DNA of 36,910 nt, from NCBI GenBank assembly GCA_035629175.1, contig DASPIL010000093.1:1-36910 (forward strand). The letters run 5' to 3'. Below, piece by piece: positions 31,828-34,114 of the stretch. The stretch comes from Verrucomicrobiia bacterium (GTDB taxonomy: Bacteria; Verrucomicrobiota; Verrucomicrobiia; Limisphaerales; DASXHY01). Numbering within the stretch: position 1 is the first letter of the stretch; every line of letters begins with the position of its first letter. Position numbers and translations under genes: made by a program. Under the pieces are notes generated by a model, which saw only the letters and a program-made list of their open reading frames with translations, did not search any database and was not told the DNA's origin.

Positions 31828-32323
31828 GGAGGTTCCCAGTTGCCGCGCGAAATCGCGTGCGTAAATTGTTCCATGAAGAAGCGTCATCATTCATCTGAGA
31901 TCACGTGGAATCGGAATAATCCGACGAAGCCAAGCCGCGAACAGTTGCGAACGAAGACGCCGCGGTTTAACTCGCCGCGCCAGTCGGCCCGTCCGATGGA
32001 ACGCAGCGGGCAGCGTCGCAGTCATTGATGTATTTCCTCACCGCTGCTCCAGCGCGGCACACTGGTTGCGCCGAAGCCATGGTCCATGAATGCCGCGGGA
32101 CTGTAGAACACCGATCGCTTTCGAAACCCAGCCCAATGCGGCAGTTGCTGCCAGTTGGCCAAAACAACGCCCGCCTTCTCGGGCTGCGGGCGAATTCTTG
32201 AGGATCGCGGCGACTTTCAACAAATCGCGCAAACGCCACAAGACCCGGTGAACGTTTGCGGATTCCTGCCAGCCAATGTAGCCGTTGGCAGCGTGTACAT
32301 TTCCGATTACATTTCGCGGCTCA
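31828..32323. other. Gap with no confident gene
   Basis: About 500 bp between the VOC gene and the TrhO/RluA fusion. Besides the small frame annotated separately (31873-32028), open frames exist on both strands but none shows a recognisable domain. The longest minus-strand frame (32038-32547) runs into the start of the fusion gene and is probably a shadow or decayed remnant. The promoter of the fusion gene should lie here, but I cannot place it. Confidence 0.45.
31873..32028 (+). CDS. Possible small basic protein, 51 aa
   Basis: An ATG at 31873 opens a 51-residue frame that is rich in Arg, Lys, His, Ser and Pro and has no hydrophobic segment. It begins MKKRHHSSEITWNRNNPTKP and ends in an arginine-rich tail. 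I do not recognise it. A high-GC region can produce such frames by chance, and no ribosome-binding site is visible. A small nucleic-acid-binding protein is possible but unsupported. Confidence 0.22.
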   Translation: MKKRHHSSEITWNRNNPTKPSREQLRTKTPRFNSPRQSARPMERSGQRRSH

Positions 32324-34114
32324 ATGCCAACGTTTCTTAACATTGCCGCATACAGGTTTGCGCCTTTGAGTGATCTCGGACCGCTCCGGGGCCGCCTGCT
32401 TGACCTCTGCAAAGGCTGGTCTTTGCGCGGCACGATTTTGCTGAGCCCTGAGGGAATCAACCTCTTCGTCGCAGGATCGCCTCCCCATGTGGAACTGTTG
32501 CTGGCCGAATTGCGTTCGATTCCCGGTCTGGGCGACCTCGATGTCAAAACAAGCGAAAGTGATCATCAGCCGTTCAACCGAATGCTTGTTCGTTTGAAGA
32601 AAGAGATCATCGCGTTCGGCATCGAGGGCATTGCTCCGGGCTCACGGACTTCTCCGAAGGTGCCGCCGAAGAAGCTCAAAGAGTGGCTGGATGAGGGCAG
32701 GCCTATCACGCTCCTGGATACGCGAAACAATTACGAGGTGAAGCTGGGAACGTTTCAAAACGCGCTGCCGATCGGCATCGATCACTTTCGCAATTTCCCC
32801 GAAGCCGTCCGCCAATTGCCGTCCGAACTGAAGGAAAAGCCCGTTGTCATGTTTTGCACCGGGGGTATCCGCTGCGAGAAAGCCGGGCCGTTCATGGAAA
32901 TGCAGGGATTCAAACATATCTTTCAGCTCGAGGGAGGAATTCTAAAATACTTTGAGCAATGCGGTGGCGCACATTTCGAAGGCGAGTGCTTCGTGTTCGA
33001 CCAGCGTGTCGGAGTCGATCCCTCATTGCACGAAACCGATTCGACTCAATGTTTCGTTTGCCTGGTCCCGCTGAGTCGCGCCGAGCAGGAGGACGCCCGC
33101 TATGTGGCGGGCAAGTCATGTCCGCATTGCTTCAAAACGCCCGACCAACGAAGGGCGGCTTTGATCGAGGAACGTCACAAGGCAATCCAGCGCTGCACCG
33201 ACCCTCTTCCCGGCGGGCTGCCTTACGACAACTACCGCCCGTTGAATATTCCGTCCAACTGCGATGGTCACGCCCTTTGTGACGCACTGAGTCAAATCGT
33301 CCGACACATACCGGCTGCGCACTGGCGGGTCCAATGCGATCGCGGATTGATACTCGACAGCGAAAAGCGGCGTGCCGCTGCAGAACAGATTGTCCATGCC
33401 GGGGAACGTTATTTACACAGGTTCCCCGGCATTGTGGAACCGAATGTAAACGGGAACATTCAGATAATTCACGAGGACGAAGCTCTGATCGTTGTCAACA
33501 AACCGGCCCCGCTGCCGATGCACGCTGGCGGACGATTCAATCGCAACACGCTGCAATACATTCTGAATCAGGTTTATTTCCCGGAAAAGCCAAAGCAGGC
33601 GCATCGTCTCGACGCAAATACGACGGGCGTCGTGCTTCTTACCCGCATGCGCCGTTTTGCTGCTCTATTGCAGCCACAGTTCGTTCGCGGCGATGTTAGG
33701 AAATTTTATCTGGCCGGCGTTTGGGGTCATCCGCAGGCAGATGAATTCGTTTGTGATGCGCCGATCAGTGCCGAAGCTGTTGAAGTCGGCACGCGGGAAA
33801 TCGATTTTGAAAGCGGGTTACCATCTCGCACCGAGTTCACAGTCCTTCGCCGGAATAGCAATGGAACAGCTTTGCTACAAGCGCGGCCGGTAACGGGGCG
33901 CACAAACCAGATCCGCGTTCATCTGTGGCACCTGGGGTTCCCGGTTGTTGGCGATCCCGTGTATTTGCAAGATAAGAAGCTGGGGCACGTTCAGACCCTT
34001 TCAACTCTGGATGAACCGCTGCAATTGCATTCGGAACGCATTCACTTTTTTCATCCGCTGACAAAAAAGGCCGTGGAGTTTGCTGCGCCAGCGCCGGTTT
34101 GGGTTGCCTCTTGA
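32324..34114 (+). CDS. trhO: Fusion of tRNA uridine-34 hydroxylase (TrhO) and RluA-type pseudouridine synthase
   Basis: 596 aa from the ATG at 32324. The N-terminal half (about 1-290) matches TrhO/YceA: an acylphosphatase-like part (GTILLSPEGINLFVAG), then a rhodanese domain with C178 in FCTGGIRCEKA and EGGILKYFE. Paired cysteines C243/C246 and C266/C269 (CPHC) probably form a zinc site. TrhO makes 5-hydroxyuridine at the tRNA wobble position. The C-terminal half (about 375-590) is an RluA-type pseudouridine synthase with catalytic D430 in HRLDANTTGVVLL, GRTNQIRVHLWHLG and GDPVY. Residues about 300-370 may be an S4-like linker. Both activities keep their key residues, so the protein is probably bifunctional on RNA. 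The target uridine of the second half is not known. Confidence 0.94.
   Translation: MPTFLNIAAYRFAPLSDLGPLRGRLLDLCKGWSLRGTILLSPEGINLFVAGSPPHVELLLAELRSIPGLGDLDVKTSESDHQPFNRMLVRLKKEIIAFGIEGIAPGSRTSPKVPPKKLKEWLDEGRPITLLDTRNNYEVKLGTFQNALPIGIDHFRNFPEAVRQLPSELKEKPVVMFCTGGIRCEKAGPFMEMQGFKHIFQLEGGILKYFEQCGGAHFEGECFVFDQRVGVDPSLHETDSTQCFVCLVPLSRAEQEDARYVAGKSCPHCFKTPDQRRAALIEERHKAIQRCTDPLPGGLPYDNYRPLNIPSNCDGHALCDALSQIVRHIPAAHWRVQCDRGLILDSEKRRAAAEQIVHAGERYLHRFPGIVEPNVNGNIQIIHEDEALIVVNKPAPLPMHAGGRFNRNTLQYILNQVYFPEKPKQAHRLDANTTGVVLLTRMRRFAALLQPQFVRGDVRKFYLAGVWGHPQADEFVCDAPISAEAVEVGTREIDFESGLPSRTEFTVLRRNSNGTALLQARPVTGRTNQIRVHLWHLGFPVVGDPVYLQDKKLGHVQTLSTLDEPLQLHSERIHFFHPLTKKAVEFAAPAPVWVAS

Follow-up and report, generated by a model that had tools for sequence, protein, structure and literature searches.

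A conserved fusion of a TrhO-type tRNA hydroxylase and an RluA-type pseudouridine synthase in Limisphaerales

The window analysed here is 36,910 nt long and makes up the full length of one contig in a draft genome of 5.4 Mb from the order Limisphaerales (Verrucomicrobiota). In one of its genes, a single frame of 596 codons runs from a TrhO half through an S4-like segment into an RluA-type pseudouridine synthase (PSU) half (Table 1). Both parts are ordinary; their combination is a new variant. The fusion is genuine, old and conserved, occurring in many Verrucomicrobia and in some other bacteria, and a chance frame is excluded by the 14 further genomes of the order in which the homology extends from end to end. 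The reading that we tentatively favour, at somewhat short of an even chance, is a bifunctional anticodon-loop enzyme, in which the TrhO half would form ho5U34 and the PSU half a pseudouridine at a neighbouring uridine. No published description of a TrhO-PSU fusion was found in the open-access papers searched.

The fused gene and its two halves

The frame is open from a TTG at 32285, with an alternative start at the ATG at 32324, where conservation begins, and its stop codon ends at 34114. All three Pfam domains score above their cut-offs (UPF0176_N 78.9 bits, Rhodanese 37.5, and PseudoU_synth_2 83.9 at residues 388–534). Within its own genome, the fused gene is the only match to UPF0176_N and one of eight matches to PF00849. 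The first-pass annotation had read the gene as TrhO joined to an RluA-type synthase, which the frame, the Pfam domains and the homologues all confirm, and the signature residues it named (C178 in CTGGIR, C243/C246 with C266/C269, and D430 in HRLD) are correctly numbered. The gene is preceded by a glyoxalase-type gene and an aldo-keto reductase and followed by a convergent rsmH, neighbours that offer no operon clue within the window. The genome also holds a second RNA-modification fusion, on contig C23 (L005:373-2067, minus strand), where a 565-aa frame combines an RluA-type pseudouridine synthase (about residues 37–234) with an RlmI / Rlm_2499C5-like 23S rRNA methyltransferase (241–564), with scores below the equivalog cut-offs.

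Table 1. Position of the fused gene and its parts in the window
Feature	Position	Strand	Basis
Fused gene, TrhO + S4-like + RluA-type pseudouridine synthase (PSU)	32324..34114	+	ORF, domain profiles, 14 full-length homologues in the order
UPF0176_N acylphosphatase-like domain, residues 6-95	32339..32608	+	Pfam; basic R90, K92 correspond to E. coli TrhO K112, R114
Rhodanese (hydroxylase) domain, residues 115-209	32666..32950	+	Pfam; structure match to TrhO 9j5o, 4f67
Active-site loop CTGGIRC, C178-C184	32855..32875	+	Sequence; invariant in fusion alignment
Two CxxC pairs, C243/C246 and C266/C269 (probable zinc binders)	33050..33130	+	Sequence; invariant in 44/44 fusions
S4-like segment, residues 301-371	33224..33436	+	Structure alignment to RluD 2ist; weak profile match
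RluA-type pseudouridine synthase catalytic domain, residues 379-591	33458..34096	+	Pfam, structure match (about 372-592)
HRLD motif, residues 427-430, catalytic D430	33602..33613	+	Sequence; invariant

The protein passes the NCBIfam TrhO model NF001133 (234.7 bits, cut-off 170) and falls slightly under the cut-off of the longer PRK05320 sulfurtransferase model (322 bits, cut-off 331). TrhO acts on U34 of NYN-decoding tRNAs; in E. coli its essential residues are C200, T201, G203 and R205, and the basic pair K112/R114 lies on its surface (PMC6599085). In an alignment of 44 fusions, which combines the window with four fusions from the order and 39 of the 62 named loci whose fusion is complete, counterparts of all four essential residues are present in every row, and C178, T179, G180, G181, R183 and C184 of the loop are invariant. 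The pair equivalent to K112/R114 is R/K in 43 rows and K/K in one; in two forms that lack the rhodanese domain (see below), the K92 position is occupied by Q (L108) or by a gap (L148). As for other enzymes, the TrhP search of the same genome returned one 860-aa U32 peptidase (214.6 bits, TrhP cut-off 534). CmoB (PF08003) is matched in 42 of the 58 genomes of the order, 25 of them above the Pfam cut-off, with 63.5 bits in the genome studied here, and the best three matches span only 101–217 of the 315 model positions.

The PSU half carries the PF00849 domain (pseudouridine synthase family 2, which includes RluA, RluC and RluD) above cut-off and with the catalytic Asp, Tyr and Arg. Against the RluA-family model TIGR00005 it lies slightly under the cut-off of 192.7 (179.2 bits for the whole protein, 181.8 for the PSU half alone), and an unfused relative in genome G177 passes at 195.0 bits. 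Assignment to RluA proper was rejected, the equivalog score of 108.1 bits being far under the cut-off of 286. Residues K393, H427, R428, D430, Y462, R526, R531 and H533 are invariant in all 81 PSU rows (66 fused, including the window, 11 alone, three without rhodanese and one split). The S4-like segment ahead of the catalytic domain is of a kind typical of the rRNA enzymes RluC and RluD. In profile comparison it shows a weak match to the S4 region of the genome's own RluD-type protein (probability 85%; 40% for E. coli RluD, 14% for RluC), and the S4 Pfam domain itself has no match in the fused protein at E 0.1; W334 of the segment is W in 64 of the 66 fused rows. As both active sites are conserved, both halves are under selection, and each is predicted to be catalytically active.

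The model of the whole protein, computed from the 44-row alignment, has a mean pLDDT of 86.2 and a pTM of just 0.56, so the individual parts are confident and the placement of the halves relative to each other is not given by the model. Among known structures, the PSU half most resembles RluA in complex with an anticodon stem-loop (2i82, Z 26.7, 208 residues, 2.1 Å), followed by RluC (Z 25.3), and the TrhO half is nearest to TrhO with tRNA-Ala (9j5o, Z 25.8, 266 residues, 5.2 Å), which ties with 4f67 (UPF0176, Z 25.4). Model residues 301–596 align to full-length RluD (2ist, Z 24.3, 277 residues), where the deviation of 7.5 Å probably reflects another domain angle. A model of the PSU half only (pTM 0.77) gave the same order, RluA at Z 24.6 and RluC at Z 23.3, and aligned to 2ist over 273 residues (model residues 20–316, Z 22.1).

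Distribution and descent of the fusion

In the survey of the order, UPF0176_N occurs in 17 of 58 genomes, 15 of which (that of the window included) carry the full fusion. The full-length fusions of the 14 others are 49–70% identical to this one, and the two remaining genomes have a gene cut by a contig end (L040) or TrhO alone (L028). In 16 of the 58 genomes a PSU of the fusion's type was found, every time in the same frame as UPF0176_N. Across the phylum, 68 of 288 genomes have UPF0176_N and 20 of these also have the fusion's PSU type, in one frame in 18 (again counting the window's genome) and apart in two. Four of the 18 phylum fusions (the window, L068, L070 and L073) were read as sequence, and the other 14 were judged from the places and open frames of both matches, with stated lengths that differ in G123 and G271.

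The named loci are the best 80 of 485 relatives, chosen by closeness to the PSU half, and the shares given for them hold for that set; among the matches listed, the nearest by PSU half are Verrucomicrobiota of the Limisphaerales or Pedosphaera type. Sixty-five of the 80 are fusions, of which 62 have the start of TrhO complete and three are truncated at contig ends; 11 have the PSU alone, three lack rhodanese and keep UPF0176_N, and one (L103) is split by a single in-frame TAG between the halves. Most loci come from metagenome assemblies, and three fused loci lie in records titled as strains, a title on which their isolate status rests: Povalibacter uvarum DSM 26723, Peristeroidobacter agariperforans KA5-B and Steroidobacter agaridevorans SA29-B. 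In the order of Povalibacter the fusion profile is matched by 59 of 147 genomes at E 1e-40, comprising four full fusions, 54 with the TrhO half only and one weak match with the PSU half only. Plasmid records gave 186 matches, none covering more than 80% of the query, and the 20 matches listed are to the TrhO half only. Two further loci, L237 (in G390) and L238 (in G376), show TrhO matches whose open frames measure 557 and 556 aa; the fetched stretch contains no PSU match, and these may be a different TrhO fusion.

The preponderance of metagenome assemblies and the stop between the halves in L103 might suggest an artefact of assembly or annotation. The first-pass annotation had itself named a frame split in close relatives, with the fusion due to an assembly error, as evidence against its reading, and had proposed a search for the domain pair in other genomes. 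Such a search recovers it from 14 more genomes of the order, from 18 of 288 in the phylum (the window's own among them) and from the three strain-titled records; the fused frame is widely kept, and an artefact is refuted to the point of having practically no probability.

In the TrhO tree, 23 fused rows group with the G177 gene and two rows of TrhO only in a fusion-type clade (100/100), from which the phylum's ordinary TrhOs are separate. This tree was built without L057 (a long branch) and without part of the fused rows, and a larger one with 51 fused rows gave the same grouping (SH-aLRT 99). In the PSU tree, built from 34 of the 81 rows, four order fusions, two rows from G177 and G297 and seven outgroup rows, the PSU halves likewise fall into a single clade (97/84) that excludes E. 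coli RluA, RluC, RluD and TruC and three paralogues from the window's genome; the long branches of G177, G297 and the outgroup make the root unsure. The two halves agree in their pairwise distances (Mantel r 0.83, 0 of 2000 permutations). The trees fit one fusion origin, and the two halves share their descent. Fused genes whose records carry the titles Planctomycetota or Pseudomonadota are interspersed with Verrucomicrobiota rows, as horizontal transfer would produce; the fusion has probably spread horizontally, and some metagenome records may be mis-binned.

Genome G177, of another class, encodes the fusion-type TrhO and the PSU by adjacent genes that differ in frame and whose open frames overlap (contig C108, L280:2575-4582, minus strand). 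Its PSU branches under all fused PSUs (99/87), and its TrhO lies inside the fusion-type clade, where the TrhO tree gives it no firm place, lowest or otherwise. Perhaps an adjacent gene pair of this kind was later fused; a long branch or a later split are the alternatives. The PSU-alone forms nest inside the fused clade, which makes loss of the TrhO half the most likely course there, and as UPF0176_N was not found in any of their 11 draft genomes, the PSU of these organisms needs no TrhO half. Conversely, TrhO of the fusion type stands without its PSU in L028 (G036) and L061 (G159), again in draft genomes. In L087, L108 and L148 the rhodanese domain is missing and UPF0176_N is joined directly to the PSU, with the CxxC pairs kept in L087; these represent two or three events of loss, since L108 and L148 group together in the PSU tree. 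Each of the three genomes has a second UPF0176_N gene: a 757-aa full fusion beside L108, a fusion-sized frame of 624 aa beside L148 and an ordinary TrhO beside L087. Povalibacter also holds a separate ordinary TrhO.

Candidate target uridines and gene neighbourhood

Anticodon loops were taken from 46 distinct tRNA genes of the window's genome. Of the six NYN-type U34 tRNAs, four have U32, in the loops UUUGCAA (Ala), UUUGGGA (Pro), UUUGUAA (Thr) and UUUACAC (Val), and two have C32, in CUUGAAA (Ser UGA) and CUUAGGA (Leu UAG). Besides U33, U34 and this U32, their one further loop uridine is U36, in Thr alone. By comparison, U32 occurs in none of the seven other U34 tRNAs, all of which have C32 (Fisher p 0.021, for a small sample and a comparison picked after the loops had been seen). 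TrhO puts an oxygen on C5 of U34, and a pseudouridine synthase joins this same C5 atom to the ribose. The two enzymes had been suggested in the first-pass annotation to act on the same or neighbouring positions: both reactions on one base are unlikely and were rejected on this established chemistry, as both use C5, while action on neighbouring positions stands as plausible, given U32 in four of the six.

Published passages describe pseudouridine 32 in tRNAs as a product of RluA (PMC9481147, PMC11421799), which in E. coli requires the sequence UURNA and also modifies rRNA and mRNA (PMC11421799); for YjbO, its counterpart in B. subtilis, positions 31/32 are discussed (PMC7408541). Among the U32 tRNAs of the window's genome, A36 is found in none of 18, so none follows the UURNA rule and the recognition used by E. 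coli RluA cannot be copied. If the site is 32, recognition must therefore differ from that of E. coli RluA; a natural supplier would be the N-terminal domain of TrhO, which the PSU-alone forms do without.

A pattern search for tRNA-Thr(UGU) in 30 genomes gave matches in 29, chance matches included, as the reversed control also matched. Of 16 genomes that carry the fusion or a version truncated at a contig end, 15 gave a match with U32, as did 12 of the 13 lacking both and also G036, which has TrhO alone; one match, in G041, has C32. As a correlate of the fusion, position 32 was rejected as uninformative, and U32 may simply be what these tRNAs normally carry. The occurrence of Thr U32 in both sets of genomes, together with the persistence of single halves in some genomes, argues against tight coupling.

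No tRNA-modification operon was seen around the fusion in the 81 loci, many of which are short. A DEAD-box helicase (more than 70% identical to that of L079) is present at 11 of the 81 loci, a 23% match at L115 having been left out of the count, and at ten it lies upstream on the same strand. At six (L079, L081, L097, L077, L093 and L080) it is less than 400 nt from the fused open frame. An RRM protein occurs at eight of the 81. The loci with helicase and RRM protein are mostly near relatives, so that the synteny may be inherited.

Possible roles and comparison with known enzymes

Fused genes point to enzymes with a common substrate or place. For this one, we infer two activities on a common tRNA substrate, with the N-terminal domain as shared tRNA-binding part and position 32 as the second site. 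The N-terminal domain and CxxC region would bind NYN-decoding U34 tRNAs (Ala, Pro, Thr, Val, Ser and Leu types), whereupon the rhodanese loop would hydroxylate U34 with O2 to give ho5U34. The S4-like segment would provide a second RNA grip for the RluA-type domain, which would convert another uridine close by in that loop to pseudouridine, U32 being the likeliest wherever it is present. This bifunctional reading draws on the catalytic residues kept in both halves (44/44 for TrhO, 81/81 for PSU), on nearest structures that are RNA-bound RluA and TrhO with tRNA-Ala, on Psi32 as a known product of RluA, on U32 in four of six NYN-type but none of the seven other U34 tRNAs, on the agreement of distances between the halves, on the rhodanese-less forms that retain UPF0176_N on the PSU, and on the PSU type of the order being always in one frame with UPF0176_N (16 of 58 genomes). 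Counting against it are the 11 of 80 loci with PSU alone, the TrhO genes without PSU in L028 and L061, Thr U32 in genomes that lack the fusion, C32 in Ser UGA and Leu UAG, the lack of a UURNA context among the U32 tRNAs, the low RluA equivalog score (108 against 286), the low pTM of the whole model, the Q or gap at the K92 position of L108 and L148, and an S4-like segment typical of rRNA enzymes.

Another explanation, which we regard as a real possibility, though a doubtful one, is that two active enzymes serve unrelated RNAs, ho5U34 being made in tRNA and pseudouridine in rRNA (or mRNA) as by RluC, RluD or RluA, and the fusion merely ties their amounts. The S4-like segment resembling that of RluD, halves that are separable both ways and the helicase (upstream at 10/81 loci, within 400 nt at six) and RRM protein (8/81) are consistent with it, as is the action of RluA itself on rRNA and mRNA (PMC11421799). 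However, it is hard to see why three rhodanese-less forms retain the TrhO N-domain if that domain serves ho5U34 alone; the closest fold, by a small margin, is RluA rather than RluC or RluD; and the inheritance of synteny among near relatives weakens the helicase and RRM argument. Those same rhodanese-less loci, from two or three events, taken with the PSU-alone loci and the separate ordinary TrhO in Povalibacter and the L087 genome, could instead indicate a pseudouridine synthase with a tRNA-binding TrhO part, kept chiefly for its PSU activity, with the rhodanese minor or redundant. This appears quite unlikely: the active-site loop is invariant in 44/44 full fusions, the L108 and L148 genomes also hold the 757- and 624-aa UPF0176_N frames described above, the first a full fusion, and L028 and L061 retain the TrhO half without PSU.

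Even on the same tRNAs, the PSU site could be U33, or 31, 39 or 40 in the stem, and not U32. Each of the six NYN-type U34 tRNAs has U33, and Ser UGA and Leu UAG have C32. Yet RluA acts at 32 (PMC9481147, PMC11421799) and YjbO is discussed for 31/32 (PMC7408541), and position 33 is not named for the RluA family in those passages, which makes another site decidedly improbable. A bolder form of the bifunctional reading, which we consider rather unlikely, would make UPF0176_N a portable tRNA-anticodon reader that, since an old fusion, delivers ho5U34-type tRNAs to an RluA-type domain freed from the UURNA rule, producing Psi32 (or modifying U33) in tRNAs outside the known range of E. coli RluA; the hydroxylase would have been cut out at least twice and the reader kept for the PSU.

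If both halves act on one loop, wobble hydroxylation, with its wider codon reading, would be linked to a loop-stabilising pseudouridine, and the fusion would offer a handle on the role of the TrhO N-terminal domain. Labels such as 'sulfurtransferase' or 'pseudouridine synthase' may conceal a two-headed tRNA enzyme.

Among known systems, MnmC and yeast Rib2/Pus8 have two modification activities per chain, and the second of these involves Psi32; their chemistries differ from that of the TrhO-PSU fusion, and we know of no fused tRNA-modification enzyme of their kind that joins TrhO to a PSU. TrcP of Vibrio cholerae has, to our knowledge, no TrhO part. It is a dedicated Psi32 enzyme (tRNA-Tyr) that exists beside RluA (PMC12588516). 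RluD and RluC, which act on 23S rRNA, have ahead of the catalytic domain an S4 domain to which the S4-like segment of the fused PSU may correspond; however, a separate RluD-type gene (L001) is present in the window's genome, and the fused PSU branches away from all seven outgroup rows. RluA, the enzyme of tRNA Psi32 and 23S Psi746, has the same fold and catalytic residues and, of the E. coli paralogues, scores best in sequence, model and structure comparison, whereas identity is about 30% and the extra S4-like segment belongs to the fused PSU. TrhO (YceA, the O2-dependent tRNA U34 hydroxylase) is alike in UPF0176_N and rhodanese domains, CTGGIR, CxxC pairs and essential residues, but the TrhO half of the fusion is joined to a PSU and forms its own well-supported subfamily (100/100).
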